Part shown: piece after piece, positions 10,769 through 42,252 of the stretch
Numbering within the stretch: position 1 is the stretch's first letter
How the letters are laid out: every line of letters begins with the position of its first letter
Assembly (NCBI GenBank): GCA_017622845.1
Contig: JAGAQJ010000010.1
Coordinates: forward strand, 52,418-116,417
DNA from: Lachnospiraceae bacterium
GTDB taxonomy: Bacteria > Bacillota > Clostridia > Lachnospirales > Lachnospiraceae
Direction of reading: 5' to 3'
DNA: 64,000 bases
Notes under the pieces: model-generated
Databases searched by the model: none
What the model saw: only the letters and a program-made list of their open reading frames with translations
Told to the model about the DNA's origin: nothing
Position numbers and translations under genes: made by a program

Positions 10769-11161
10769 TTAGCCTAAAGGTGAACCGCACTTACTGCAGA
10801 ATTTATAAATTCCTGCACTCTGGGCACCGCACTTAGGGCAGACTTTTACTGATTCCACAGACTGAGCAGTTCCTAAAATCTGCTTTTGCTCTGCCGCAAG
10901 CTGTTCAATCGCCTTCTTCTGCTGCTCGATTTCTTCGTACTTTCCCGTAATCTCGTGAACGATTTCCATAACTGCATCTTCGTAGCTTTCACCCGTTATT
11001 GTTTTTCCATATACAATTTCACCTATATTCATTTTCAATGTCTGTATTTCCTTTTCCAATGTTGAAATATAGGTCTTACATTTGGATTCCTCCATAAAAC
11101 TATTGGTCTTTACATTAATTGCTGTAAGTCCTTTTGAAAATGATTCTTTTAATGAAGCCAT
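10769..11161 (-). CDS. Zinc-ribbon protein with helical N-terminus
   Basis: 130 residues, ATG at 11161 with GGAGGAG just upstream. The first about 100 residues are charged and helical, likely coiled coil (KYEEIEQQKKAIEQLAAEQ). The C-terminus is a CxxC-x(n)-CxxC zinc ribbon (CPKCGAQSAGIYKFCSKCGS) as found fused to many bacterial membrane and signalling proteins. It appears to be the first gene of the signalling series and is probably cytoplasmic. Its partner is unknown. Confidence 0.75.
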   Translation of the reverse strand: MASLKESFSKGLTAINVKTNSFMEESKCKTYISTLEKEIQTLKMNIGEIVYGKTITGESYEDAVMEIVHEITGKYEEIEQQKKAIEQLAAEQKQILGTAQSVESVKVCPKCGAQSAGIYKFCSKCGSPLG

Positions 11162-11327
11162 AATCTCCTCCTCATAATCCCTCTCATTGCCATGTTTTGC
11201 TGCTATTTAGAAAATAATACACAAATTGTTACTTATTGTCTGAATAGTTGGAAAAATGTCATGCCCTTATATTAACATTCTTTTATGACAATCGCAAGTG
11301 CTTTGCACCATGTCATATCAATTTACT

Positions 11328-11480
11328 GTAACAGTTCAGCCTTTTATACATTCCTATCCGGACGAAAACGGCAGATAGTATCCCTCCGGCTGCCGTTTTC
11401 TGTTCATTAAAATCGTAAAATAGAATCGTTGTCAGTACACAGAAGTCCAGCAGAAATAATCCATAAGGCTGAACTGTTAC
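11328..11480. mobile_element. MITE-like element, family 2, with 9-bp target duplication
   Basis: A 153-bp non-coding element with perfect terminal inverted repeats GTAACAGTTCAGCCTT and AAGGCTGAACTGTTAC. It is flanked by the direct repeat CAATTTACT at 11319-11327 and 11481-11489, which fits a target-site duplication. The interior holds a hairpin, GGCAGATAGTATCCCTCCGGCTGCC-like in layout, also seen near 57270. Single ends of the same type occur at 41993, 47800, 49391 and 58711. Confidence 0.85.
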
Positions 11481-11548
11481 CAATTTACTGTCGATTTCCT
11501 TTATTTATGCCTTAAAAATAAACGAGAGCTGGCAATTTTGTTCCTCTC

Positions 11549-11719
11549 CTTACAGGCTCGTGTAAATCGAGTAGGCTCTGTCCTGCTCGCCGCACCGAGC
11601 CTGTGCTGCTTTGCTGCTGATTTCCTTACAGGCTCGTGTAAATCGAGTAGGCTCTGTCCTGCTCGCCGCACCGAGCCTGTGCTGCTTTGCTGCTGATTTC
11701 CTTACAGGCTCGTGTGCAT
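11549..11719. repeat. 76-bp tandem hairpin array downstream of a terminator
   Basis: Two exact 76-bp units plus a partial third: TACAGGCT begins at 11551, 11627 and 11703. Each unit contains GAGCCTGT and ACAGGCTC, which pair around GCTGCTTTGCTGC. A related array with an 84-bp period lies at 43831-44004. On the minus strand both begin right after a terminator U-tract, at UUUUUAUGCACACGAGCC. The open frame seen across this array is a repeat artefact. Confidence 0.85.
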
Positions 11720-11751
11720 AAAAAGCGCCGGTCAGAAATCTTCCGGCCGGC
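11720..11751 (-). terminator. Intrinsic terminator after the BspA-like gene
   Basis: On the minus strand GCCGGCCGG...CCGGCGC is followed by TTTTT, about 70 nt past the stop codon of the 11819-12853 gene. The tandem array begins immediately after the U-tract. Confidence 0.7.
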
Positions 11752-11818
11752 ATTCATTATGATTCGTTTTCAATAAAGCTCCCTTATCAATACTCCTTGT
11801 AACGAAACCTTCGCACAA

Positions 11819-12853
11819 TTAAGGAGTTGTCGTGTCTGATACGTAATCTGCTGTAACAGCATCCTGATATACCAGGGCATATACTGTAGATGGATAGTTT
11901 GTTGTAAATGTCATCGTTGCATCATTTGCATCTTCATCCTCTAAGATATTGATGACGCCGGTTCCTAACTGGATCAGCCGGAATTGTCTTCCCGGATATT
12001 GGAAGGCTTTTGGAATTGTCATAGTATAGGTTAATGGCTCGTCTGTATTTTTAACCACTCCTCTGACACTATTAATACTGATATTGTAGGCTGTTACATA
12101 TGTATTGTCTCCCAGTACAATCGAAAATGCCTCCAGCGCCGCTTTTCCCTGCTGCATACTGGAAATACTTGTGCTCATCGTATAATCCGGCTTGGGACTT
12201 ACAAAGCTCAGCTCACTCTTATAGTCATATATCGGATACTCCGGATTTGCATAAGTTGTCTTAGCATCCATCGGTGATAAATTGTCAATCTTTGGTGAAA
12301 CCATATTCTGTACCCATGCCGTCATGTAGTAGTTGGCAAGCTTATAATGATATTTTCCGTTAAAGCTCTGCATAAATGCTGCTATGCTGTCAAGGCTGTT
12401 ATATGGCACATTTCCAATATTCCGACTGACAATATCTGTTCCTGCAATCTCAAAGATACATCCGTCAGAGGCGCCGCCAAATGCAGCAGGGCTTTCAATG
12501 AAGGTACCTGCATACATTGATACCTGATGCAAATCCTTTAGATTAGAAAACGCCTCTGCCCCGATAGACGTAATATCCTTAGATATCACTAAAGCATAAA
12601 TCGTCTTATTATGCCATGGTCTGTTGCCTAAAACCTCTCTGTCATATGCCGGAACTGCTCCGTGTCCTTGAATATAAAGCGTTGTTCCCTGAATCTTTGC
12701 TGTTAAATTTGTATCCTGCCCGTCTGTGTAGGTCCATGTCTGTTCGCCGTTCTTCTGTGTCCAGCATGGTCCCTGCGCTGCAGCAGCCTTTGCAGGCATC
12801 CACAAAGCTGCTGCCATCGCTATCGCGCATAACATACTAATGAATTTCTTCAT
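11819..12853 (-). CDS. Secreted BspA-like leucine-rich repeat protein
   Basis: 344 residues with a clear signal peptide (cleavage probably after PAKAAAA) and a strong GGAGGGG site before ATG 12853. Residues about 40-120 resemble the first unit of BspA/LRR_5 proteins: a WTYTDGQ.. strand, then LVISKDITSIGAEAFSNLKDL. The C-terminal about 200 residues form a beta-rich domain of unknown family. There is no sortase motif or membrane anchor, so it is probably released or held by other contacts. It is monocistronic with its own terminator. Confidence 0.75.
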   Translation of the reverse strand: MKKFISMLCAIAMAAALWMPAKAAAAQGPCWTQKNGEQTWTYTDGQDTNLTAKIQGTTLYIQGHGAVPAYDREVLGNRPWHNKTIYALVISKDITSIGAEAFSNLKDLHQVSMYAGTFIESPAAFGGASDGCIFEIAGTDIVSRNIGNVPYNSLDSIAAFMQSFNGKYHYKLANYYMTAWVQNMVSPKIDNLSPMDAKTTYANPEYPIYDYKSELSFVSPKPDYTMSTSISSMQQGKAALEAFSIVLGDNTYVTAYNISINSVRGVVKNTDEPLTYTMTIPKAFQYPGRQFRLIQLGTGVINILEDEDANDATMTFTTNYPSTVYALVYQDAVTADYVSDTTTP

Positions 12854-13109: not shown

Positions 13110-13940
13110 TTAAGCGTTCTGTTTAGCTTGTACTAACTCTTTATGATAAAAGTAATTGATATGTTTTATGGAACGGTCGTTACAATATCTCTCAATTTCA
13201 GCTGACAAATCATGCCAATATTGCATGTTTCCTTTTAGATAGACATCGCAATACAGCTCCATGAATTGAGGATAGGAATTTTTAATATAGCTAAGTATAT
13301 CCTGTTTATAGCTACCCCGTAAGTTTAAATTCTCAAACCAATATTCATCTACATAGTCTTTACTGTATTCAATTATTTCCCGAAAATCTGTTATTTCGGG
13401 AAAAATAGGGGACATAAACAAAACAGAATATATTCCATTTTTATGTAATTCCTGCAGCGCATTTAATCTTTCTGAAATACTGCCGGCATGATCCATATCT
13501 TTTCTGAATTGTTCATCTAATGTATTGATTGACACTGAAACTTTAAGATTTTTGCACTGCTTCAATAAATCAATATCTCTTAAAATCAAATCAGATTTTG
13601 TTGAAATATTCAGTTCACAATCTATTGATACTAATTGCTCTAATATTTTTCTTGTACTTTGATACTTTTTTTCATATTGATTATAACAGTCTGTTACCGA
13701 AGATAGAAAAACGGATTTACCCTGCAGCTTCTTTTTGTTTATTTGTTTGTCCCATCTCTTAATATCAATAAAACTTCCCCATTCTTCGCTATGATTTGTA
13801 AATCGCTTCATAAAACAGGCATAACAATACCTGCATCCATGAGGACATCCAATATATGGATTTATCACATAATCACTTGCCGGCAAATTTGATTTCGTTA
13901 CCAGATTTTTTACCAAAACCTCTTTTTCTACTATTTTCAT
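13110..13940 (-). CDS. SPL-like radical SAM protein
   Basis: Start at ATG 13940 (MKIVEKEVL), which overlaps the upstream stop as ATGA. The cluster motif CX3CX2C is CPHGCRYC in NPYIGCPHGCRYCYA, typical of the spore-photoproduct-lyase-like radical SAM group (also seen in the PA0069/Rv2578c type). 276 residues, short for SplB and without its C-terminal catalytic cysteine context, so DNA repair by photoproduct reversal is not shown. It is translationally coupled to the XRE/DUF5680 gene that the mobile element has split, so it may now lack its native promoter. Confidence 0.75.
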   Translation of the reverse strand: MKIVEKEVLVKNLVTKSNLPASDYVINPYIGCPHGCRYCYACFMKRFTNHSEEWGSFIDIKRWDKQINKKKLQGKSVFLSSVTDCYNQYEKKYQSTRKILEQLVSIDCELNISTKSDLILRDIDLLKQCKNLKVSVSINTLDEQFRKDMDHAGSISERLNALQELHKNGIYSVLFMSPIFPEITDFREIIEYSKDYVDEYWFENLNLRGSYKQDILSYIKNSYPQFMELYCDVYLKGNMQYWHDLSAEIERYCNDRSIKHINYFYHKELVQAKQNA

Positions 13941-14500
13941 AAAATTGTGCCCCCATGAAATATACATGAATACACTTTTTCTTGCTTACAATATATTTTT
14001 TCTTCACCGGAAAAGCTTTCAAAATCACCTTGCACCTGACAATGATAGATATAATCACCTTTTTGATAAAATTCCGGACCCCGAAACGGCATAACAGTCG
14101 ACACATGTGACAATGCTTCTTTTAAAAATGTAATATTAAAATTTTCGTTCATGCTCTGTCCATAATAATTCATTGCCCACACTGCATTATCTTTTATCCA
14201 AACACATTCTTCACCTGCGAATTTCTGATTTCCCAAATATGTATCAATGTACAAATAATCATTTTCATTATAACAAAAATCATGTGAATTAGGCTTTGAC
14301 GGCGTGACTTCATTTCCGCCTGCTGCATATGTATTATTTTTTGCTCTGACTAAGAAATTTCTAATATCATTATCCGGATAATTGGGGGCACAAAGAAAAT
14401 TTACCTCGCAAGTATCATTTTCTTTCACAAGCCTATCAATGGAAACTCTAAAAATTTCACTAAGCTTTATAAGATTCTGAATATCCGGAAAAGACTGCCC
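13937..14500 (-). pseudogene. 3' part of XRE/DUF5680 regulator split by the mobile element
   Basis: The frame covers the last part of an XRE helix-turn-helix (GQSFPDIQNLIKLSEIF) and a DUF5680-like domain (YLYIDTYLGNQKFAGEE, AVWAMNYYG). The first helices are missing here and are found at 38987-39106, ending KWENG. Joining the two through the shared GGG gives KWENG-QSFPDI in frame, a protein of about 224 residues. A TTG or other upstream codon could still allow a truncated product. This is a host gene, not element cargo. Confidence 0.9.
14498..14500. other. Left attachment junction of the mobile element
   Basis: The GGG (minus strand) is where host sequence (CAGTCTTTTCCGG) meets element sequence. 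Reading outward, the element end has TTGTCA 17 nt inside the core. The right junction at 38993-38995 has TTGTCA 16 nt inside, in inverted orientation. Serine integrases exchange strands at a 2-bp core, here probably GG. Confidence 0.75.
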
Positions 14501-14606
14501 CTCTTGTGTCAAGTAGTTGACAACATTTTCTTAAACTTTTTTCTTCCTCTCCATTATATCAGCTTTTGACAGATAATCTACCAAAAGCTGATACAATCTT
14601 ACTTCC

Positions 14607-22346: not shown

Positions 22347-23216
22347 TTACATTATAATTTTCTTTACATTTCCACTCATAATCATATAAATCTCTTCCTC
22401 AGAGAAGTTATTCTCTCTTAAGCTACATAAAATCGTCTGATACCCAGATGCTTCATACAACGCATCTGGGATTTTTATATCTTGTTTAAAGACTTTTGAG
22501 AAATGATCCAAATCCATAAAATCAGGTCCCAATGCTACATTTTCTGCTCCTACACATTTCGCAAAATACAATATTTGAGAAATAATATCACGGACAATTC
22601 CCATATCATTTTCATATGTATCATGCGAAACCTTAGACACCAAATCATTAACAAACGGTATTCCAAATAAGCATCCTCTATTCAACAACCTTTCAATTGT
22701 ATCTTTTGATATCGCATTTGTACGAGGATGGATTGTTTCAATAAGTTCACTGCACACACAATGGGATACAATCACCCTTCCGCTATACTTGTCCAATATA
22801 CACCTTATTTCATAGTCATCTAAATGACTCAAATCAAGAATAAGATCATTTTCAATTAATGCATATAATAATTGATGCCCCAATTCAGTCAACCCAGTTT
22901 TTTTATCAAAATAAACATTTGTCTTTGAATGAAATAATTGAACCACAGCAAGTCCCATATCTTTTGCTTTTTTAAGAGATTTAATCTCTCTGAGCAAAGC
23001 TATATTTTCTATCGCAAACCTCACTGTACTTTTCAAATATTTCTTGTTATGCCAAAAAATACACTCCTCTAAAGAACTAAAGACATCATAATCTCCATAA
23101 TACTTCATCAGTAAATCAGGATATATTTCCAATGCAACTATACTTGTTTCAACATCAACTCTTTCAAGTAGTCTTTGAGGTAAATAGTGCGTATGTATAA
23201 AAGATACCTTATTCAT
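22347..23216 (-). CDS. M19 dipeptidase-like metalloprotein of the RiPP operon
   Basis: 289 residues, overlapping the preceding radical SAM gene by 8 bp. It resembles renal (membrane) dipeptidases of family M19: GLTELGHQLLYAL, DLSHL and IVSHCVC carry the two family histidines, an AIEN motif supplies the bridging Glu, and ALGPDFMD the late Asp. The N-terminal metal pair, normally HxD, is HTH (His8, His10). M19 enzymes cleave dipeptides, and GliJ of gliotoxin synthesis cleaves Cys-Gly, so a role in trimming or releasing the Cys-rich product is plausible. It is shorter than typical M19 enzymes. Function within the pathway is inferred. Confidence 0.75.
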   Translation of the reverse strand: MNKVSFIHTHYLPQRLLERVDVETSIVALEIYPDLLMKYYGDYDVFSSLEECIFWHNKKYLKSTVRFAIENIALLREIKSLKKAKDMGLAVVQLFHSKTNVYFDKKTGLTELGHQLLYALIENDLILDLSHLDDYEIRCILDKYSGRVIVSHCVCSELIETIHPRTNAISKDTIERLLNRGCLFGIPFVNDLVSKVSHDTYENDMGIVRDIISQILYFAKCVGAENVALGPDFMDLDHFSKVFKQDIKIPDALYEASGYQTILCSLRENNFSEEEIYMIMSGNVKKIIM

Positions 23217-24159
23217 ATGTTATCCCCCAAGGCAAACAACAATTCATGCACACAGGATGGTATTCTCCCTCAATCATACTATTTCGAAATTCCCATGCCC
23301 TTTCACTATTCCAGATTTCTTCGAATGAATTACTCAGAAGATTTCCGATAATATAGTTTTGTTCACAACAGAACTTCACATCTCCATCAGCTCCAATAAA
23401 AACGTGTTGCCATGGAGAAACACAAAGTTTTTTCTTTAATTGATTCCTCTTTTCATATGGATTAAATGAAAATCCCAAACCAAGTTCTTTTGCCAACTGT
23501 TCACATTTTAATATATACTCTTCAAACAGCTCTCTCTCATCACATTGGTCAAGTTTTAATCTGCACCATGTATCTATATCTGGCATACATTCTCTTACTT
23601 CTGAAACATGTAGAAAATCAACACCAACTTGCTTAGCTAATCTAATAAGCGACTCAATGCAATGATAGTTCTCTTTGGTAGCAACCATATTTATTATGTA
23701 CGAGAAGTTAGCATTACCAATTGTCTTTCTCCTTTCACCTATTACTTTAAGCGTGCTTACAATTTTGTCAAAATTACCCACTGGACGATTTAATCTATAT
23801 GAGTCAAAACCAGCTCCATCTAAAGACACAATCAGTTCCATGTTACTCATCACAAAATCATCAATTTGTGCATCACTAATCAATGACGCATTTGTAATAA
23901 GAATTTTTTTAATGCTAGGAAATTGTTTTGCTGAATCAAATAGCCTTTTAAAATGAGGTGATAATAAAGACTCCCCCGTTCCTTGTAATTCTATCTCATT
24001 TGCATATGGTAATAATTCTTCTATAACCGTATCTAGCACTGCTTCCGGCATATCATTACCATAGTCTACAAATCCATGTTTACATGTTATACACTTAAAA
24101 TTACATCTACTAGTAACTTCAATATGCAACCTTTTAGGATACCTTTGTTTAAGATTCAA
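23209..24159 (-). CDS. Radical SAM/SPASM enzyme 3 of the RiPP operon
   Basis: 316 residues. The CX3CX2C motif is CNFKCITC in EVTSRCNFKCITC. A partial barrel follows, and the C-terminus has a short SPASM-type cysteine set (CVSPW...CC...CMNCC). The start overlaps the UvrA-like gene by 11 bp. It is distinct from the two paired SPASM enzymes near the precursor and could perform a later modification. Substrate unknown. Confidence 0.85.
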   Translation of the reverse strand: MNLKQRYPKRLHIEVTSRCNFKCITCKHGFVDYGNDMPEAVLDTVIEELLPYANEIELQGTGESLLSPHFKRLFDSAKQFPSIKKILITNASLISDAQIDDFVMSNMELIVSLDGAGFDSYRLNRPVGNFDKIVSTLKVIGERRKTIGNANFSYIINMVATKENYHCIESLIRLAKQVGVDFLHVSEVRECMPDIDTWCRLKLDQCDERELFEEYILKCEQLAKELGLGFSFNPYEKRNQLKKKLCVSPWQHVFIGADGDVKFCCEQNYIIGNLLSNSFEEIWNSERAWEFRNSMIEGEYHPVCMNCCLPWGITYE

Positions 24160-25852
24160 CTAATTTCCCTCCCATTAATCCGTTTAAAAGTTTTTTAGGA
24201 CAATTCTCTGGCAACCCCTCATACATAATTTTTCCATCCTGCAAATATATAATCCAATCTGACATATAAACAAAATACGGATTATTTTCTGCTATAACCA
24301 CGGAGTTATTCTTTTCAATAAGTTTCTGTAATGATTCCATTACACAAGGTAAATCCATCATATGAAGCCCTTTTGCTGGTGAATCAAGAATAAATAAGCA
24401 TCTATCTCCGAGTTTTTTCGATAATTCCTTTGTAATTTTTATTCTCTGACTCTCACCACCACTTAACGAACCTGATGGCTGTCCTAATCTTAAATACGAC
24501 AATCCTATTTTATTTATAAAATCAATTTTTTCAGTAAGAATCCGTTTTTTTGAATCTTTCGAGTAGATTTTATACAATTCTTGACACGAAGAAGACAATA
24601 CATCTCCTATTGACATATCACTCTCTTTGACACTTAAAGTATTTTCATTATATCTCTTGCCATTGCAAGCATCACAAACTTCATAAATCTGCTCATCATC
24701 GATTTTGACCTCAAAACTTCCTCTTCCTTTGCACTTTTGACATTGTCCACTAGAATTGAAAGAGAAATCACTTTTATCAAATTTCAACTGTTCCTCTATT
24801 GCCTTATTAAGATATATATTACGTAAACTTTCCATAATGCTAGTATATGTAGCCGGAGTACTCATCGCATTATTGCCTATCGGTGCTTGATCTATCATAT
24901 AAGGTCTACGCAAATTATTTTTACCATCTATAGCACCATCTATACCTTCTCTGTTTTTCCAAGCTGAAGCAGATTTATCACACGCTCTATAAATAATATC
25001 AAGTAGAGAGCTTTTACCGCCTCCCGATGGTCCACATATGGTAACAATTCCACTAAAAGGAATTGTTAAATCTAAATTCTTGAAACCATGATAATTAATA
25101 TCACCTATATTAATTCCTTTGCTCAGTTTATTATGAATTGAAGCTGTTTCTTTAAGTAAATTTATCATTTCCTTCCAACTTTTCGACTTCTTATATTCTG
25201 ATGTGTCGCCTTCGAAAGTAACTTCTCCACCATATTCGCCCGCATCAGGACCTAATTCAATTACATAATCAGATTGCTCTATAATCGGCACAGCATGCTC
25301 AACCGACAATATAGAATAACCAAAATCAACCAAACGTCTGAAACATTTTGCAATTTTTCGAGCCTCATTTATGCTTAGCCCGGCTCCTAGTTCGTCAACT
25401 ATCAATAGTTCTGCTTCTGTTTTCAAAAGCATCTTTATAAAACGTAACTTATTATATTTTGTTAAATTTAATTCTCGAATCAAATCTCCTGTGCAAATTC
25501 TTTCTAGTTCAAGAATTTGCAACAGTTCAGTAAGTAGCATTTTCTTTTCTTTCTTGATTTTCTTGTTGTTTTCAATATATTTCCCAATGCTGTCTGATGA
25601 TATTCCCAAGAATCCTGCTATAGTCTGATCCGAATTCGGAATAAAAGCTTTTTGTTTAAACAGAACTGGTTCCAATGGAACTGTTACATTTTGTAGTTTT
25701 TTCATATAACCAGACATGACAACATTTACAGCAAGTGTTGATTTTCCACTTCCACTTTTTCCAACAAAAACAACATATCTATCAAGAGGGATTTGAATAC
25801 TGACATTTTTTAAATTATTAACATTTGCATTTATTACAGCTATACAACGCAT
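24149..25852 (-). CDS. Miniature UvrA-like ABC ATPase with one degenerate ATP site
   Basis: 567 residues versus about 940 for UvrA; ATG at 25852 with GGAGGAG upstream, 3 nt after the methyltransferase. The first ATPase half has Walker A GKSGSGKST, Walker B LLIVDE and SVEH switch His, but its signature is lost (LNLTKYNK). It lacks the UvrB-binding region and first zinc finger. The second half has GPSGGGKSS, the UvrA-specific IDQAPIGNNAMSTPATYT, zinc finger CQKCKGRG...CDACNGKR and LSGGESQR, but Walker B Glu is Ser (FILDSPAKGLH) and the switch His is Asn (AENN). One composite site is therefore intact and the other degenerate. It may give self-protection or act on DNA; repair activity is unlikely. 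Confidence 0.88.
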   Translation of the reverse strand: MRCIAVINANVNNLKNVSIQIPLDRYVVFVGKSGSGKSTLAVNVVMSGYMKKLQNVTVPLEPVLFKQKAFIPNSDQTIAGFLGISSDSIGKYIENNKKIKKEKKMLLTELLQILELERICTGDLIRELNLTKYNKLRFIKMLLKTEAELLIVDELGAGLSINEARKIAKCFRRLVDFGYSILSVEHAVPIIEQSDYVIELGPDAGEYGGEVTFEGDTSEYKKSKSWKEMINLLKETASIHNKLSKGINIGDINYHGFKNLDLTIPFSGIVTICGPSGGGKSSLLDIIYRACDKSASAWKNREGIDGAIDGKNNLRRPYMIDQAPIGNNAMSTPATYTSIMESLRNIYLNKAIEEQLKFDKSDFSFNSSGQCQKCKGRGSFEVKIDDEQIYEVCDACNGKRYNENTLSVKESDMSIGDVLSSSCQELYKIYSKDSKKRILTEKIDFINKIGLSYLRLGQPSGSLSGGESQRIKITKELSKKLGDRCLFILDSPAKGLHMMDLPCVMESLQKLIEKNNSVVIAENNPYFVYMSDWIIYLQDGKIMYEGLPENCPKKLLNGLMGGKLVES

Positions 25853-25855
25853 CCT

Positions 25856-26605
25856 CTATCTCCTCCTTTCAAATTCGAAAACAATAGTCATTGGCACATT
25901 TCTCATTCGCTCCATTAATGTATTATCCGAGTCATAATTCATATATTTAAACGATGCAGCCTCAATATTAGGTCTGGGTTCTTGTATTGCTTTTACTTCC
26001 CAACCATTTCCTTTAAACGCATTATAAATATATGAAATACTGTAATGAACTCGTTCCAATAAGACTTTGTTTTTATTACCATATGGTATAAAGTCCACTC
26101 TACCATCATCAAAATAAGATTTCATTCTTTGTTCTTCTACATCATTTCCATATAAAGCAGTCCACATTGGATGAAATTTTGAGACAAAGCATCTTGAACC
26201 AATTCTGGTTATCTGATTTAATTCAGAAAAAAACTCATCATCAATTCTAAGATAGTCTAGTGAACCCCAAAATGTTATTATCTCAAACGGATTTCCATCA
26301 TACTCTTTCAAATATGATTTCAAATCACAGTTTAAAAAAGTACACGAATCTCTAGCATATTGTTTATTTGCCTTATCGATCGCTGAAGACGCAATATCTA
26401 TTCCTACAGTTCTAACTTTTCCCACAGAATGCATCAAATAAGTATTTGTCCCTTCGCCGCAACCAATATCTAATATACTATCTGCATGCCCCACAACATC
26501 ATTAGGATCAAGCCCTTTCAATCCCAACCCTGTATGGATATTCTGAACATCAAATGTAGCTAAATCATTAAATTCTTCAGCATACCTATTCCATCCATCG
26601 CTCAT
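25856..26605 (-). CDS. Class I SAM-dependent methyltransferase of the RiPP operon
   Basis: Start at ATG 26605 (MSDGWN) with GAGAGG upstream. SAM motif I is ILDIGCGEGTNTYLM, followed by GIDIASSAID (motif II) and ITFWGSLDYL. 249 residues, the usual size for small-molecule or peptide N-, O- or S-methyltransferases. It lies 14 nt downstream of the B12-type radical SAM gene. Its target is probably the precursor core or termini, inferred from the operon. Confidence 0.88.
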   Translation of the reverse strand: MSDGWNRYAEEFNDLATFDVQNIHTGLGLKGLDPNDVVGHADSILDIGCGEGTNTYLMHSVGKVRTVGIDIASSAIDKANKQYARDSCTFLNCDLKSYLKEYDGNPFEIITFWGSLDYLRIDDEFFSELNQITRIGSRCFVSKFHPMWTALYGNDVEEQRMKSYFDDGRVDFIPYGNKNKVLLERVHYSISYIYNAFKGNGWEVKAIQEPRPNIEAASFKYMNYDSDNTLMERMRNVPMTIVFEFERRR

Positions 26606-26619
26606 CAAAACACCTCTCT

Positions 26620-28641
26620 TTAGTTATTATCATAATAGCCGTACCACTTTAATGAATTGAACCGATTACCATAATTAAATTCAATTACATTTTCACCTTC
26701 ATATGGCAGAATTTCTTCAGGATTATCATTAGTCAGTTCCAAAATGCCTTCGTTTATCAACTCATATAATGTGTTTGTATTCAATCCTAAAGCAATTAAT
26801 TCAACAGGAGTAAAACTACGTCCCTCTAATTTCATGATCATTTCTGCGTTATTATCTTTTAAAAATACAATACCATCTCTTCGTCTCCATTTGCTGATAA
26901 CGCGATTATCATAATCAATCACAACCGACTCATGAATTTTTAATATTGAATTTCTATATAAAGTAATTTTGCGACTACTTCTTTCCAATAACTTTGCCAT
27001 CGCAATAGTGTGACCTGTAGAAATCAAAACATCGGCCGGTGAATATTTTTCGTCAAAAGACATTCTTAAAGAACGAATTTGTTCCTTTATATGTTGGTTA
27101 CTAAAACTATATGATGCACTATGCCAACCTTCATCCTCCATGTTTTCCAACTCCAATTGATAATTCAGCTCTTTTGCTATCAGCGAATTACCATACATAA
27201 TGAACTCTGAGCAATTATAATTATCAGGATGAGATTTTTCATCAAGAATGAATTTCATCGTTTCTATTCGATCTTCATCAGTTTCCCCAGGAAATGCAAA
27301 CATAATATACGTGTGAACTAAAATACCATGCTTTCTGCATAACTGAATTATTGCAGAAGCATTTTCTATCTTAGTTCCTTTATCCATCAAATCGAGCACA
27401 TGCTGAGAACCCGATTCTAACCCAAATTTAATAAACACACATCCTGCTTTCGCTAACAACTCAATAAACTCTTCATCTACGAATGGTGGGTCAAATCGAG
27501 AATTCGTTCCCCACTTGATTTTTACATCATTTTCAATAAGTTTCTTGCAGAATTTTTTCATAATTGGAACAGGTATTGCACTGTCTAGAAAATATATGCA
27601 ATCAATATCTCCATTCTTTGCATTTTCAACGCAAAAATCAATCATTTCTTCAGCATTATATTTACTATCAAGACATGAATGATACTCCTTATCTGTACAA
27701 AACTTACACTTTCCCCAATAGCATTGATATGTAAAACGCAAAGGAAGAACTCTTAATGGCGAAAAATAATTATCTAACTCCTGTCCAATAATAGTTGGTG
27801 GGCACACGGATATTTTTTGATTACATATCTTTTCTGCCGGAATATAATATGCTCTACTTTCGCTCTTTTCACCCTTATCAAATAACCCCTGCATATTATT
27901 ACCATTTTCTTTTAAATACCAAATCAAGGCTTCTCCTTCACCAGCATTAACAAAATCACAATAGGTAGCTATTGGTCCGATAGAGTCACCTGAATTAATA
28001 AAAGAATTTACAAAACCACCCCCAACAATGATTTTGTTATCTGGATGTAATTCGTTTAATAATTTGCAAACCATTATGGCAAAAAATAACTGGCTTTCAA
28101 ATGTAATATTAATTCCTATCACCTGAGTATTAGAAATATTCATTGCTGAAATCCATTTTTTTATCAATGCACATATGTCCGACTGATAAAATTTGTTAAT
28201 AAAACATTCAATATCTTTCCAAATATTCCATCTATAAGGCGAATCCACTCCATCTAGTCGAAATCTTAAATTCTTAAACCTCATAGAATATAAGTCATAA
28301 CTACAACGTATATAGTCTACCAACCGCCAATAATACTCTGTTGTAGTACAATTCTTTAATTCTCGTTTCAAATCACTGTAATCTTTGATTTTTTCAAATG
28401 ACCCCAAAAATTTTCTATAAGAAAGAACCTCTATTTTATCCAATTCATTCTCAATAATAATATTCTCTTCTGACATATGATTATCAATAATCTCTTGTAA
28501 AAAGAAATTATTAAAATTATATATATCCATCTTATAACCGATTTTTTCTGCATATCCAGCAATCTGATATGGCCCCAATAAAGGAACCGTAGGTTCACAC
28601 GCTGGTGGAATAATATATTTCATATTTACTGTGTTTGACAT
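26620..28641 (-). CDS. B12-binding-type radical SAM enzyme of the RiPP operon
   Basis: Start at ATG 28641 (MSNTVNMKY) with AGGAGG 4 nt upstream. The N-terminal about 230 residues resemble a cobalamin-binding fold (PTVPLLGPYQIAGYAEKIGY, then IIVGGGF). The cluster motif is CYWGKCKFC, a CX4CX2C spacing. A barrel with IKFGLESGSQHVLDLMDKGT and FAFPGETDEDR follows, then a C-terminal domain of unknown role. Class B radical SAM enzymes typically methylate sp3 carbons, so C-methylation of the peptide is the first hypothesis. A stem-loop with a U-tract directly precedes its ribosome binding site. Confidence 0.87.
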   Translation of the reverse strand: MSNTVNMKYIIPPACEPTVPLLGPYQIAGYAEKIGYKMDIYNFNNFFLQEIIDNHMSEENIIIENELDKIEVLSYRKFLGSFEKIKDYSDLKRELKNCTTTEYYWRLVDYIRCSYDLYSMRFKNLRFRLDGVDSPYRWNIWKDIECFINKFYQSDICALIKKWISAMNISNTQVIGINITFESQLFFAIMVCKLLNELHPDNKIIVGGGFVNSFINSGDSIGPIATYCDFVNAGEGEALIWYLKENGNNMQGLFDKGEKSESRAYYIPAEKICNQKISVCPPTIIGQELDNYFSPLRVLPLRFTYQCYWGKCKFCTDKEYHSCLDSKYNAEEMIDFCVENAKNGDIDCIYFLDSAIPVPIMKKFCKKLIENDVKIKWGTNSRFDPPFVDEEFIELLAKAGCVFIKFGLESGSQHVLDLMDKGTKIENASAIIQLCRKHGILVHTYIMFAFPGETDEDRIETMKFILDEKSHPDNYNCSEFIMYGNSLIAKELNYQLELENMEDEGWHSASYSFSNQHIKEQIRSLRMSFDEKYSPADVLISTGHTIAMAKLLERSSRKITLYRNSILKIHESVVIDYDNRVISKWRRRDGIVFLKDNNAEMIMKLEGRSFTPVELIALGLNTNTLYELINEGILELTNDNPEEILPYEGENVIEFNYGNRFNSLKWYGYYDNN

Positions 28642-28651
28642 TTTTCCTCCT

Positions 28652-28704
28652 AAAAAAATTAGTCGCACCGAAATACTAGGAATAGTATTTTCTGAACGAC
28701 TAAT
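28652..28704 (-). terminator. Nested stem-loop with U-tract inside the RiPP operon
   Basis: On the minus strand ATTAGTCG...CGACTAAT encloses AAATACTA...TAGTATTT and is followed by TTTTTTT and then the AGGAGG of the B12 radical SAM gene. It looks like a leaky intrinsic terminator or attenuator lowering expression of the distal enzymes relative to precursor, SPASM enzymes and recognition protein. Confidence 0.7.
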
Positions 28705-28719
28705 TAAAAATCATAATTA

Positions 28720-28983
28720 TTAAACTGGCTCGATAAGATTAAGTTTCTCAAAACCTTCTACCAATTCAACTACTTTTTCTCTTACTGAATCTGCGTTATA
28801 TTGCTTTGATACTTCATCAATGATGTCCTTTACTGAATTCTCTCCATTTATCATCGTCCATACAACTTTTCCATCTTCATTAAGTGATAAAGCTGGGGTG
28901 CTCTTAGATACAATTAAGAGTCCAAAACTCTCTTCTCTTGCTTTTACCCCTTCCACTAATCTATAAACAGTCAATTCATTCAT
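28720..28983 (-). CDS. PqqD-like RiPP recognition element
   Basis: 87 residues; ATG at 28983 preceded by GAAGGAGG and overlapping the stop of the upstream radical SAM gene. It has the PqqD-type winged-helix pattern: LSLNEDGKVVWTMINGENS, then VKDIIDEVSKQYN and a C-terminal helix ending EKLNLIEPV. Stand-alone proteins of this type bind the leader peptide and present it to the modifying radical SAM enzyme. Its position between the SPASM pair and the B12 enzyme supports this role. Confidence 0.88.
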   Translation of the reverse strand: MNELTVYRLVEGVKAREESFGLLIVSKSTPALSLNEDGKVVWTMINGENSVKDIIDEVSKQYNADSVREKVVELVEGFEKLNLIEPV

Positions 28984-30004
28984 TGTCAGCAACCTCCTTC
29001 ATTTTACAATATGGGTCTGGTCCATCTATTTTATTGGAACACGCCAACGCAGCCGCTCTACAACCACCTCTACAGATTTTAAAGTTAGCACATTTCTTAC
29101 AATAATCTGGAACATCAAGTCCACATATATGATTACAGTATATCTCTGATTTTCTCTTCATTTCTGCAAATGTCTCACTAAGAATATTACCAATCTGCAG
29201 TCGTGACATGCCACACATTAACACATTACCATTAATATCAATATAAAATCTAGAAGCACCAAAATGACAATACTCGCTATAATGGTTTAGATTCTTTGGC
29301 AATGCACAATATGGTACAGAATTTGCAAGCAAAACATAAAAATTCTTATTCAAACAACTTTCAAGAAAGTCATCTGCCTGTTCTAACACTTCAACTAGTT
29401 GCTCTGTAGAAATACTCAAATAGGCATTATCTGCTCCAACTCCAGTAGGGGTAAATCGAGTAAGTGTCATCCCATTAACGCCCATATCGTGTAATTTTCT
29501 AATCGTATTAGGAAAATCCGAAATATTTTCCGTTGTAAGCACAAAATTTGAAGCTGAATTTACTCCCTGTGAAATCAAGTGTTCCAGTGCCGCATAAGCT
29601 TGCTCATAACTTCCCTCTACTAAAGTGAGTTTTTCATGTAACTCCTTATCTCCATGGAGCGATACATTAACACCATATACACCCTTGCTTTTCAATATCT
29701 TAGCAATTTTTTCATCAATTAGTGTTCCGTTAGTCTGAACCATTACCTTGTCAAAATACTTACAACATTTATCTAATATTTCAGTAAACAACGGATGACT
29801 TATTGGTTCTCCACCTGTAAGGATAATCTCCAAAACACCCATCTCATGCAAACGTTCTATAATATCAAAGACCCTGTCTGATATTAACGGATTCTGACTA
29901 TTATAACAAAATTTACACTTCAAATTACACTGTTCCGTTAATTCTACCTCTACCCTTGTTGGATTCATTCCAATATTGAGTTCCAACAACCTATTATTCT
30001 CCAT
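28976..30004 (-). CDS. Radical SAM/SPASM peptide maturase 2
   Basis: Start at ATG 30004 (MENNRLLELN), overlapping the previous gene; longer in-frame starts upstream run through that gene. The cluster motif is CNLKCKFC in ELTEQCNLKCKFCYN, with ILTGGEPI. The C-terminal SPASM domain has its cysteines in CHFGASRF, LMCGMSRL, CNHICGLDVPDYCKKC and KICRGGC, fitting two auxiliary clusters. 342 residues. Enzymes of this type form thioether or carbon crosslinks at cysteines in sactipeptides and ranthipeptides. Confidence 0.92.
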   Translation of the reverse strand: MENNRLLELNIGMNPTRVEVELTEQCNLKCKFCYNSQNPLISDRVFDIIERLHEMGVLEIILTGGEPISHPLFTEILDKCCKYFDKVMVQTNGTLIDEKIAKILKSKGVYGVNVSLHGDKELHEKLTLVEGSYEQAYAALEHLISQGVNSASNFVLTTENISDFPNTIRKLHDMGVNGMTLTRFTPTGVGADNAYLSISTEQLVEVLEQADDFLESCLNKNFYVLLANSVPYCALPKNLNHYSEYCHFGASRFYIDINGNVLMCGMSRLQIGNILSETFAEMKRKSEIYCNHICGLDVPDYCKKCANFKICRGGCRAAALACSNKIDGPDPYCKMKEVADNE

Positions 30005-31019
30005 CTGCGTAGCCCCATTTCTTTGTACGAACTTTTTCTCCACACGAAATAATAGACTCGTCGTAAACCACGCAGCCACCCTTACATCTTTTCACCTCAG
30101 AGCACTCCTGACACCCTATAGGTATATGGCACAAATGTTCGTATTTTGTCCATCCTTCAGCTTTCCATATTTCTGAAAATGATTTACTATTGAGATCTCC
30201 AATTACATCATCTGAAATTGTACATGGAGTAACCTTTCCAACTGGACTTATTCTTGCAAGACCATATCCATACTGACATGGGATATTTAATATTCGTAAT
30301 TTCTCATAATATTCTTTATCAACTTCACAATATGGAACTGGTCCAGGAAGGCTAACATCTGAAATACTCGGAAAATCTTCTTTAACTTTCATTAACATGT
30401 CAATTAATTCCATAGTCATCTTAGAATCCATTAACATTTTTTTATTCTTGCTATCATTCAATATGTATCGGGTAGAACACAAAGCATAACAATCTAATTC
30501 AGCACAGAGTTTTCCAATATTATATATATTCTTATAATTTTCAGCTGATGTACATACATTTACCTCAACATTCACTCCGTGGCGTCTCCAAGTTTTTATG
30601 CCCTCAACAACATCTTTATACGCACCTATACGCCCTGTCATCCTATCATGTTCCTTTTCATCCGAATGCAAAATAGAAGTACAGACACTCTTCATATAAC
30701 GAGAAATAAATTCTGCCATATCGTCGGTAACTAATGTAGAATTAGTGTTCATATGTAACTCAAACCCCAATTCATATGCGTATTGAATAATTTCTTTGAT
30801 ATCTTTTCTTGTTAATGGCTCTCCACCATTAAAATTAATTCTAAAAACATTCATTTCTCGTAATTGATCAAGAACATTCTTAACCTGCTCTGTCGTGAGC
30901 TCATTGCCTGTTACATGTCCCAATGGATTGTAACAAAAATAACACTTGTTATTACACTTCTCTGTTAATTCAAATTGTACATAAAACGGAGCATTCGCCC
31001 TATTTATTTTCTCTATCAT
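29994..31019 (-). CDS. Radical SAM/SPASM peptide maturase 1
   Basis: Start at ATG 31019 (MIEKINRAN) with AAAGGATGG upstream. CX3CX2C is CNNKCYFC in ELTEKCNNKCYFCYN; the glycine-rich NFNGGEPL follows. C-terminal SPASM cysteines lie in CQYGYGLARI, VTPCTIS, CHIPIGCQEC and VKRCKGGC. 341 residues, nearly the same length and layout as the next gene, so the pair probably arose by duplication and may act as a complex or in sequence. It lies 57 nt downstream of the precursor gene. Confidence 0.92.
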   Translation of the reverse strand: MIEKINRANAPFYVQFELTEKCNNKCYFCYNPLGHVTGNELTTEQVKNVLDQLREMNVFRINFNGGEPLTRKDIKEIIQYAYELGFELHMNTNSTLVTDDMAEFISRYMKSVCTSILHSDEKEHDRMTGRIGAYKDVVEGIKTWRRHGVNVEVNVCTSAENYKNIYNIGKLCAELDCYALCSTRYILNDSKNKKMLMDSKMTMELIDMLMKVKEDFPSISDVSLPGPVPYCEVDKEYYEKLRILNIPCQYGYGLARISPVGKVTPCTISDDVIGDLNSKSFSEIWKAEGWTKYEHLCHIPIGCQECSEVKRCKGGCVVYDESIISCGEKVRTKKWGYADGE

Positions 31020-31076
31020 AACAACCATCCTTTCATGTTGAGAATGACGCAAACAACGGGAGCTAATAAAAAAAGA

Positions 31077-31226
31077 TTATTTGCATGCTGAACATGCTGA
31101 ACATGCTGTACATGCACAACATGCATCCATCTCTCTCTGGTCAAAAACAACATCTGCTCTTTCAGGATTTGAAAAAGGCTCAACAAACGGATCAAAAATT
31201 TCAAGCTGTGGATTGAACTCTCTCAT
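31077..31226 (-). CDS. 49-residue Cys-rich RiPP precursor peptide
   Basis: ATG at 31226 with GGAAGGAGG upstream, stop TAA at 31077-31079. The leader (residues 1-35) is acidic and aromatic (FNPQLEIFDPFVEPF) with no cysteine. The last 14 residues are CCACTACSACSACK: six cysteines at 36, 37, 39, 42, 45 and 48, mostly three apart. The codons for SAC repeat as 9-bp units. It heads an operon of two SPASM radical SAM enzymes and a PqqD-like protein, as expected for a sactipeptide- or ranthipeptide-type precursor. No Gly-Gly leader cleavage site is present. Confidence 0.88.
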   Translation of the reverse strand: MREFNPQLEIFDPFVEPFSNPERADVVFDQREMDACCACTACSACSACK

Positions 31227-31297
31227 GATTAGTTCCTCCTTCCATAAAACATTAAACTGTAACCTAATAAAAATACGTCATTCTCTCGACGAAAGTT

Positions 31298-31372
31298 CCT
31301 CCTTAAATTTGCTCCTCACAAATCTCGCAAAAGCATTGTAATTACGCGGATTTCAGGGCATTTTAAAGGAGG
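31298..31372 (-). promoter_or_regulatory. Possible anti-SD pairing in the precursor leader RNA
   Basis: Within a 160-nt untranslated leader, CCTCCTTTAAA (31362-31372) can pair with a downstream TTTAAGGAGG (31298-31307); GGAGCAAAT also occurs twice nearby. The paired segment contains a Shine-Dalgarno-like sequence without a gene of its own, so it may compete with or mimic the true site before 31226. Confidence 0.4.
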
Positions 31373-31393
31373 CGATTTGCTCCCTATATTGTC

Positions 31394-31421
31394 ATTATAC
31401 CATATTTTTTCTTATTATCAA
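31394..31421 (-). promoter_or_regulatory. SigA-type promoter of the RiPP operon
   Basis: Minus strand: -35 TTGATA (31416-31421), 16-bp spacer, -10 TATAAT (31394-31399) with an extended -10 TGG just before it. Transcription would start near 31387, giving a 160-nt leader before the precursor gene. Confidence 0.75.
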
Positions 31422-32046: not shown

Positions 32047-32658
32047 TTAAAGTAATCTCAAAAGCTGCACAAGTTCATGTGTTTCTGATTCACCCGATAC
32101 AGTTTGTCTAGTATCAAAACGCTTAAAACCATAATTTTCATAAAACGAAAGCAGTTTCTCTTTATTATCTGCTTCCACAAATGCCACCATACCGCCAGCC
32201 TGATATTGCAAAAGCTGTGTTTGTCTGATAGCTGCTTCCAAAAGTTCTTGACCTGTTATGCGTCCCTTTGCTCTTTCATTGAAATTCTTTCCAAGCTGAG
32301 CTATCAGATACGCTGCCAGATTATAAGTATGCTCATTCTTATCAATTTCACTAAACCTTGCAAGCTTTCTCTTAACGGTATTGCTAAATGGTTCGGACTT
32401 TACAACAAGGGGTTTGATAGTAATAGAAAAATACCCCAACAGTTCTGCATCCTCCAATGATAATACCAAATATGTAACTGCCTGATGTTTTTTGGCAAAG
32501 TCAATTGCCTGCTCTTTTAAAAATCGCTCAACATCCGGATTTAAGGGACAAGAAAACTCGGAAAGGAGTTGTACTAAAGTTTCCTCTCCGAGCCTTTTAT
32601 CCTCATTTTCTAAATACTCACGGATGTTCAACACAATAAAATTATTTGCTGGTTGCAT
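32047..32658 (-). CDS. GNAT acetyltransferase, probable toxin of a TA pair
   Basis: 203 residues. GNAT-fold features include the QLGKNFNERAKGRITGQELLEAA acetyl-CoA loop region (R-x-x-G-type) and the terminal FYENYGFKRF motif common to this family. It overlaps the upstream 64-residue gene by 17 bp, as in GNAT toxin-antitoxin modules of the TacT/AtaT kind that acetylate charged tRNA. Such pairs are common on mobilizable elements and would help retention. Toxicity is inferred from family and layout only. Confidence 0.7.
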   Translation of the reverse strand: MQPANNFIVLNIREYLENEDKRLGEETLVQLLSEFSCPLNPDVERFLKEQAIDFAKKHQAVTYLVLSLEDAELLGYFSITIKPLVVKSEPFSNTVKRKLARFSEIDKNEHTYNLAAYLIAQLGKNFNERAKGRITGQELLEAAIRQTQLLQYQAGGMVAFVEADNKEKLLSFYENYGFKRFDTRQTVSGESETHELVQLLRLL

Positions 32659-32836
32659 CCGCTTTCTTCCTTCTCTCCATGAATTTTAAAATATTATCTG
32701 TACCCTGCAAGTAGGTTACATTGATCGGTACACGAGGTGTTCTGTCGTTGGCAGATGCTTCAATAGCATCGGCAAACATCTCCACCTGTTTCTGACCGGA
32801 TATGATAAAATTCTTAGTGATACTTGAAGTTGCCAT
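32642..32836 (-). CDS. 64-residue partner of the GNAT protein, possible antitoxin
   Basis: ATG at 32836 with AAAGGAGG upstream. It begins MATSSITKNFIISGQKQV and ends with a basic helix (ILKFMERRKKADATSK). It is not an obvious ribbon-helix-helix DUF1778 antitoxin, but the overlapping stop/start arrangement with the GNAT gene suggests a functional pair. Confidence 0.6.
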   Translation of the reverse strand: MATSSITKNFIISGQKQVEMFADAIEASANDRTPRVPINVTYLQGTDNILKFMERRKKADATSK

Positions 32837-32962
32837 ATTAACACCTCCTTTTTCAGTATGGCTCGTATTGATTTTTTCATACTTTCCTAACTTTATTTTA
32901 TTACCAAACATCAGTTTTTGCAACTGGATTTTTGTGAAATTTATATTAAAATTCTTATTTGC

Positions 32963-33029
32963 ATTATATGTGATGGCACACGTCCAAATTATGGCTTTCT
33001 CATAAACAATATGTGCCATCACATATAAT
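32963..33029. repeat. Perfect 18-bp inverted repeat beside the relaxase gene
   Basis: ATTATATGTGATGGCACA (32963-32980) and TGTGCCATCACATATAAT (33012-33029) are exact complements with a 31-bp spacer, right after the relaxase stop codon. It could end relaxase transcription, act as an operator for the TA promoter, or be a plasmid-like control site. Confidence 0.7.
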
Positions 33030-42022: not shown

Positions 42023-42252
42023 GAAGGGCGGCAGTTCTATGCCGGTACAGGCGATTGGACTCCAAATGCGAATTTTCTAATGGGTGATGCTAAGCCTTCC
42101 AAACCATCCGCGACCGGACTCTGCGCGCCGTCCATGGACGCGTTTCGTCCTAAATCCGCGTCCATGCGGATTTTCGCTGATGTATCGAATCACCCATAAG
42201 AAAATGTCAGCATTCTCCGCCAGCCTGTTCCGGCATAGGACTGCCGCCCTTC
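42023..42252. repeat. 230-bp long-hairpin repeat between ackA and proS
   Basis: GAAGGGCGGCAGTTCTATGC (42023) pairs with its near complement ending at 42252, and TTTTCTAATGGGTGAT with ATCACCCATAAGAAAA inside it. The left flank (TTCAGCCCTATGGACTATTTTA) matches the family-2 element end. The right arm (CATTCTCC.CCAGCCTGT...CTGCCGCCCTTCTG) recurs at 57318-57375. It is a dispersed structured element; no coding is supported. Confidence 0.8.

Follow-up and report, generated by a model that had tools for sequence, protein, structure and literature searches.

A 64,000-nucleotide stretch of the genome of a Lachnospiraceae bacterium (assembly GCA_017622845.1, contig JAGAQJ010000010.1, positions 52,418 to 116,417 of the forward strand; hereafter the window, position 1 being its first letter) carries on its minus strand a nine-gene cassette that, from its sequence, we read with a probability of about 0.6 as the pathway of an undescribed, horizontally spread class of ribosomally synthesized and post-translationally modified peptides (RiPPs), whose product probably stays inside the cell. 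The cassette is one operon (31384-22347) of nine open reading frames (ORFs) in the same direction (31226-22347), with small gaps or overlaps between them, that encode, in this order, a precursor peptide, two radical S-adenosylmethionine (SAM) enzymes (rSAM1 and rSAM2), a PqqD-like protein, a cobalamin-type radical SAM enzyme (B12-type enzyme), a methyltransferase, a UvrA-like ATPase, a third radical SAM enzyme (rSAM3) and an M19-type hydrolase. These gene identities, their single direction and the lack of a transporter in the operon had been proposed in an earlier note made from the letters alone, and all three agree with the nine minus-strand ORFs and their Pfam and NCBIfam matches. Pfam recognized Radical_SAM in four of the proteins and SPASM in rSAM1 and rSAM3, as well as the methyltransferase and an ABC ATPase, while none of the nine reached a curated NCBIfam cut-off among the matches listed for each protein (best 25 at most). 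The operon is not a chance arrangement, since its precursor has homologues in six other loci, each of which also encodes rSAM1, rSAM2 and PqqD.

These six further loci, seven in total with the window, belong to other Bacillota, Spirochaetota, Alphaproteobacteria and Desulfovibrio, and the core set of precursor, rSAM1, rSAM2 and PqqD is present in all seven. A first type comprises the window, a Bacillota locus (L022) and another Lachnospiraceae locus (L027), which hold all nine genes in identical order, L027 having an additional gene behind that of the precursor, together with a Spirochaetaceae locus (L026) that shares the first five genes and then reaches the end of its contig. The second type, found in Thermincola (L023) and Desulfovibrio sp. 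A2 (L029), contains a UvrA-like protein of 731 or 711 residues, three B12-type radical SAM genes and an M19 gene, rSAM3 and the methyltransferase being undetected in both. The alphaproteobacterial locus (L028), covered over 12.2 kb, holds only the precursor, rSAM1, rSAM2, PqqD and rSAM3. Two other proteins were observed in these loci: one of 451 residues inside the Thermincola cassette (L023 8422-9777), with no Pfam or NCBIfam family, and one of 266 residues between precursor and rSAM1 in L027 (691-1491), nucleotide cyclase-like by eye and with no PADLOC, Pfam or NCBIfam match.

The precursor gene (31077-31226, minus strand) starts with an ATG preceded by an AGGAGG-type ribosome site and encodes 49 residues, with Cys at every third position of a tail that forms an (ACx)n core, CCACTACSACSACK. 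The core of 14 residues described in the earlier note is putative, as is its boundary. Homologous precursors with a conserved leader and an (ACx)n core occur in all seven loci; the leader of the nearest copies reads FxPxxEVFDPFxxPF, and M1, F4, P6, E9, F11, F14, P17, F18, C36, A38, C39, A41, C42, A44 and C45 are invariant in the alignment. Nonsynonymous divergence among the four nearest loci is 0.16-0.26 while synonymous divergence is saturated and not estimable, which indicates that the amino acids of the precursor are under purifying selection. Codon comparison of six of the seven precursors (L028 left out) showed 9 to 22 identical residues with different codons in each of the 15 pairs. The window precursor matches no Pfam or NCBIfam family, and the search of the precursors against NCBIfam up to E 10 returned a single, meaningless match. 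A conserved leader/core precursor lies beside a leader-binding protein and tailoring enzymes, the arrangement expected of a RiPP pathway. The L028 precursor (L028 822-1034) is a longer variant of 70 residues with the tail CSACSACSACSSACCACTACGSW.

The two enzymes next to the precursor, both supported by Pfam and NCBIfam and both found in all seven loci, are rSAM1 (29994-31019) and rSAM2 (28976-30004), whose starts at 31019 and 30004 are better than the listed ORF starts. rSAM1 is a radical SAM enzyme of the SPASM type whose cluster cysteines are intact, one SPASM Cys being changed in the L028 copy. The claim that two SPASM enzymes adjoin the precursor stands by Pfam for rSAM1; in rSAM2 the SPASM domain was not called by Pfam, and the assignment is supported by a CX2CX5CX3C motif and by full-length matches to SPASM families in NCBIfam. 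The PqqD-like leader-recognition protein (28720-28992; 36.1 bits, Pfam cut-off 23.4) is also present in all seven loci, and is weakest in L028 (26% identity, E 3e-5).

rSAM1 and rSAM2 are PqqE/MftC-like, the top NCBIfam scores being those of PqqE for rSAM1 (128 bits, cut-off 381) and MftC for rSAM2 (128 bits, cut-off 265), so that neither reaches the curated cut-off. The scores with sactipeptide and ranthipeptide maturases are likewise below their cut-offs, for rSAM1 with StsB (83 against 625), SkfB (76 against 300) and PapB (57 against 340) among the best 25 of 71 families, and for rSAM2 with PapB (83 against 340) among the best 25 of 77 families; the solved structure nearest to rSAM1 is that of SkfB. 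The cassette resembles sactipeptide and ranthipeptide systems (SkfB, AlbA, StsB, PapB) in having a SPASM radical SAM enzyme adjoining a Cys-rich precursor, but differs from them in its two or three separate radical SAM/SPASM enzymes with a stand-alone PqqD, in the period-3 spacing of the core cysteines, in the additional UvrA-like, B12-type and M19 genes, and in leaving the maturase cut-offs unreached among the matches listed.

The PqqE and MftC scores lead to another explanation, namely a pathway like those of pyrroloquinoline quinone (PQQ) or mycofactocin, in which the tail would yield a small molecule, either a redox cofactor or a metal binder, that the M19 hydrolase would free. The top-scoring families of both enzymes, the PqqD/MftB-like partner, a hydrolase in place of an exporter and the fact that no immunity gene was recognized all fit such a pathway. 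On the contrary, the scores amount to roughly one third to one half of the cut-offs, the core is a Cys repeat and not a tail with the motifs of PqqA or MftA, no conserved dehydrogenase or client enzyme was recognized by eye in the ORF lists beside the cassettes, and a sporadic, mobile spread is unlike that of a housekeeping cofactor. We consider this explanation unlikely.

The cobalamin-type radical SAM enzyme (26620-28668) has a CX4CX2C cluster motif and a C-terminal extension of ~100 residues, and is supported by Pfam, NCBIfam and a fold match to TsrM across residues 13-580, a layout also common to MiaB and RimO. No B12-binding domain was called in it by Pfam. By this fold match it would share with TsrM, OxsB, AprD4 and MgmA an N-terminal Rossmann-type domain followed by a radical SAM domain, differing from them in its cluster motif, an insert in the first domain and the extra C-terminal stretch, and its cobalamin binding is putative. 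Downstream, the class I SAM methyltransferase (25856-26608; Pfam) occurs in the window, L022 and L027 only, and the SPASM enzyme rSAM3 (23209-24159; Pfam and NCBIfam) in these three and L028.

The UvrA-like ATPase (24149-25852, 567 residues), identified by Pfam, NCBIfam and alignment, is a reduced protein that scores 369.5 bits with the NCBIfam UvrA family, the cut-off being 1147. It is not the UvrA of the host, since a separate 972-residue UvrA frame is encoded elsewhere in that genome, and this possibility was rejected. In all five copies the signature of the first nucleotide-binding domain and the Walker-B Glu of the second are lost, leaving one ATP site intact and the other degenerate, and the UvrB-binding domain is absent. 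The insertion domain is also absent from the window, L022 and L027 proteins, a shorter stretch being kept in L023 and L029. Ecm16, to which DrrC is related, is similarly a UvrA-like protein lacking the UvrB-binding domain within a biosynthetic cluster, and DrrC too reportedly acts in self-resistance. Passages of the Ecm16 report describe resistance to the DNA-binding drug made by its own cluster, an insertion domain required for both DNA binding and resistance, and two ATP sites (PMC10192343). The window protein departs from Ecm16 in having no insertion domain and a degenerate site, and in none of the five UvrA-like copies do both ATP sites bear Walker and signature motifs.

This precedent and the shared lack of the UvrB-binding domain are what would speak for a secreted antibacterial peptide that acts on DNA, with the UvrA-like ATPase conferring self-resistance as Ecm16 does (PMC10192343, in the passages cited). 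Such a role appears quite improbable for this cassette, given that the domain required in Ecm16 is missing or shortened, that one ATP site is degenerate in five of five copies, that the five complete cassettes have no internal exporter, and that L028 has an exporter-like gene yet no UvrA-like gene in its 12.2 kb.

The last gene encodes a 289-residue M19 dipeptidase-like hydrolase (22347-23216; Peptidase_M19, 93.9 bits, Pfam cut-off 26). Its alignment shows the residues that we take, with their roles, to be the ligands of a binuclear metal site as invariant in five of five copies, the first motif being HxH instead of HxD. GliJ and renal dipeptidase are also Peptidase_M19 proteins, and the presumed metal and arginine positions are kept with respect to them, while the window protein differs in its small size, its shorter N-terminal half and the HxD to HxH change. 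As this hydrolase may trim the product, the statement in the earlier note that no leader peptidase is present may not hold.

The cassette has crossed phyla. The window rSAM1 shares 70% identity with its spirochaete counterpart and 67% with that of the other Lachnospiraceae locus, whereas the true UvrA of the window host is 59% and 82% identical to those of the same two organisms; in the tree, the spirochaete copy is nested among those of Bacillota (96/92), and the copies from Thermincola and Desulfovibrio group together (93/100). The GC content of the cassette, 33.2% against 40.5% and 42.2% alongside, agrees with its being AT-richer than farther host sequence in five of six loci (window, L022, L023, L026 and L029, for L023 against one of its two flanks), L028 showing the opposite (38.4% for the cassette part and 35.8% for the remainder). 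Relaxase, MobC, ParM-like and TnpV genes and three large serine recombinases surround the window cassette, and a direct-repeat search for the ends of the element gave none convincing. The AT-rich composition and mobilizable setting first remarked on in the earlier note are thus found again, and its suggestion of horizontal spread is now supported by phylogeny, beyond AT content alone.

The cassette is very rare. Using the B12-type enzyme as query, one of 299 genomes of the family was recovered, and using the UvrA-like ATPase (E 1e-75) one of 391 genomes of the class, the host in both cases, while rSAM2 (E 1e-35) recovered three of 299 genomes of the phylum, including the host, which led to L022 and L023; these searches scored the top three to six candidates per genome. 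A three-sequence rSAM1 profile against 84,980 species genomes gave 61 loci, of which five, L026, L027, L028, L029 and L030, reached at least 45% identity; L030 is the same Thermincola locus as L023, and misses are likely in this search since it used two short patterns only. Neither a seven-sequence profile (E 1e-70; 1 of 199, 1 of 3 and 1 of 198 genomes) nor rSAM1 alone (E 1e-50; 1 of 3 and 1 of 10) recovered anything beyond the starting genomes. L031, L062 and 54 other distant loci of the rSAM1 profile search are left out of our counts; L031 and L062 (~30% identical to rSAM1) were dropped for having no precursor-like ORF, as were four distant B12-type matches in class genomes for neighbourhoods without a cassette. 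The B12-type query had no close relative in viral contigs or species genomes and no phage match, and the UvrA-like and rSAM1 queries had no relative in viral contigs. In plasmids, the best 8 of 442 records for rSAM1 were radical SAM/PqqE-type or unannotated (26-28%), and the best 15 of 764 for the UvrA-like protein were at 32-34%, with no record covering 80% of the query.

The finding of the host alone, both with the B12-type query in the family and with the UvrA-like query in the class, might be expected of a decayed or non-functional island with genes kept by chance. This is scarcely credible in view of the ORFs, open in the window and in the complete relatives, the purifying selection on the precursor, and the nine-gene order common to three Bacillota loci, which the spirochaete follows up to the end of its contig.

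Considering the genes together, a RiPP pathway could operate as follows. PqqD would bind the conserved leader and offer the C-terminal (Ala-Cys-x)n tail to the enzymes rSAM1 and rSAM2. These two would act on the regularly spaced cysteines, most likely installing thioether cross-links like those of sactipeptides or ranthipeptides. rSAM3, the cobalamin-type enzyme and the methyltransferase might decorate the peptide further, by C- or S/N/O-methylation, and the M19-type metal hydrolase might trim the product. The one-site UvrA-like ATPase would act on the peptide or its target, not in DNA excision repair. The product probably stays in the cell, since no exporter gene lies inside any of the five complete cassettes. 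Each chemical step, the order of action, the intracellular retention and the role are here what we infer. The open-access literature searched holds no description of the gene combination or of the core or leader strings, most subscription papers and preprints lying outside it, so that absence is not proof; this silence, together with a precursor outside Pfam and NCBIfam families and enzymes below every NCBIfam cut-off among the matches listed, concurs with the pathway having been called uncharacterized.

Several observations weigh against a new RiPP class. The top-scoring named families, PqqE and MftC, produce cofactors instead of cross-linked peptides; the B12-type enzyme has its fold match in common with MiaB and RimO; and the pathway is known here from genes, its modification and product being predicted. 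Only seven loci are available, and that of the spirochaete is cut by the contig end. Moreover, L028 lacks the UvrA-like, B12-type, methyltransferase and M19 genes within its 12.2 kb and has an opposite-strand ABC exporter of unclear relevance, and therefore these four genes may be dispensable and retention in the cell may not be universal.

Upstream of the precursor, a promoter-like site (31394-31421, minus strand; TTGATA-16-TATAAT, 11/12, extended -10) is the top-scoring of 50 matches in 10.2 kb, a number as expected by chance (49.9 in shuffles), and L022, L026 and L027 have promoter-like hexamers, recognized by eye, in the corresponding position. It is followed by a 5' leader (31276-31384, minus strand), conserved in four of the seven loci, with two GGGAGCAAAT-like boxes and then a weak terminator-like hairpin (31291-31276). 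The boxes sit near the expected transcript start, with a variant in L026, and the pair spans 78 nt in the window, from the start of the first to the end of the second, and 78-79 nt across the window, L022 and L027. The GGGAGCAAAT pattern is found nowhere else in the 1.40 Mb of loci examined, copies of the same loci aside, and one CTCC stretch of the leader could pair with either box. The leader RNA matches no Rfam family, and its folding is suggestive in some copies, z being -5.2 in L027 and 0.05 in L022. No structure is claimed, because the helix of the alignment fold differs from those of single-sequence folds and no pair changed on both sides. This leader is possibly a new cis-regulatory RNA.

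Of the six loci that have at least one readable flank, four carry a known or predicted defence system at most 1.4 kb from the cassette. In L023, BREX (BrxL E 5e-211, PglZ, BrxC) is 0.4 kb away and a SIR2 protein 0.2 kb; L029 has RdrA/RdrB-like (RADAR) proteins at 0.2 kb; in L026, AbiEi/AbiEii are at 0.8 kb with a transposase fragment in between; and in L022 a PLD protein is at 0.7 kb and a primase of TOTE, a predicted defence system, at 1.4 kb. A tRNA gene, a possible integration site, was observed between the cassette and the TOTE genes (L022 12774-12848). Nine of ten chosen neighbour proteins match defence families at E 1e-20 or better, in a comparison that was not blind since the ten were picked by eye. 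Six neighbours in the window and three in L028 gave weak or generic PADLOC matches only and no defence system, and L027 has almost no flank, its contig being too short for a neighbour count.

Two controls covered ORFs of at least 200 residues, at E 1e-20. In the first, 94 proteins from the surroundings of eight other radical SAM loci, taken from the 61 and including two near-copies (L038 and L041), yielded single type I restriction and methylase, PD-T4-6, mad6 and kinase members, with mad3 (5) and mad2 (2), among the best 25 of 39 families. The 64 far-flank proteins of four host genomes, without the stretch L100 that continues the BREX side of L023 and without ORFs above 2,500 residues, yielded single Cas6, SoFic, ankyrin and PDC-M72A members and mad3 (5). 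Each set includes some genuine defence genes, type I restriction in the first and Cas6 in the second, not assigned to loci.

These neighbourhoods suggest chemical anti-phage immunity, in which the modified Cys-repeat peptide would strike phage inside the cell, the cassette would be a resident of defence islands and the UvrA-like ATPase would be a sensor, delivery or protection factor, all compatible with RiPP chemistry. The adjacency in L022, L023, L026 and L029, set beside the controls and a published null of 6 in 200 random 30-gene regions (PMC12715929), and the five complete cassettes without internal exporter are consistent with it. A precedent exists in lanthipeptides, RiPPs that are intracellular, protect Streptomyces from phage and lie in some cases in defence islands, as portions of PMC12360287 state; those belong to Actinomycetota and carry lanthionine chemistry, while radical SAM enzymes are found here, with a putative effect on phage. 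Against immunity stand the weak matches in the window and L028, the nearly flankless L027, neighbours chosen by eye, controls that also contain real defence genes and two near-copied loci, the transposase fragment separating AbiE from the cassette, and the predicted status of TOTE. Besides, lanthipeptide clusters in general are enriched near defence genes (PMC12715929, likewise in part), so shared hot spots may explain the adjacency. Immunity is live but unproven, and we hold it only tentatively, as improbable though far from negligible. A fuller version, a radical SAM RiPP immune system, is rather unlikely; in it, a horizontally mobile cassette would build an intracellular Cys-repeat peptide as anti-phage effector, the one-site UvrA-like ATPase would sense or clear DNA altered by the peptide or by phage, and the leader RNA would control the operon like a switch.

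Other features of the window were also recorded. A radical SAM protein (13110-14512) adjoins a DUF5680 protein next to the recombinases and is similar to 'radical SAM mobile pair protein B', with a score of 328.8 bits against a cut-off of 410. Just upstream of the cassette, two small adjacent genes (32047-33022), possibly a toxin-antitoxin pair, match neither Pfam nor NCBIfam, the larger being GNAT-like by eye and without a PADLOC match. An intergenic tandem repeat with a unit of ~75 bp (by eye) occupies 11161-11819, and a TwoAYGGAY candidate cis-regulatory RNA (42057-42222; Rfam RF01731, 86.5 bits) lies between acetate kinase and prolyl-tRNA synthetase genes.

As a RiPP pathway, the cassette would add a class with its own precursor family, and its combination of a radical SAM/SPASM pair with PqqD, a B12-type enzyme, a one-site UvrA-like ATPase and an M19 hydrolase has no precedent in the literature searched. 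In the UvrA-like protein, a fold known from DNA repair would seem to have been recruited to peptide biosynthesis, one ATP site having been lost. If the defence-island signal holds, the cassette would be a radical SAM counterpart to the anti-phage lanthipeptides, and the breadth of small peptides as intracellular immunity would become directly testable.

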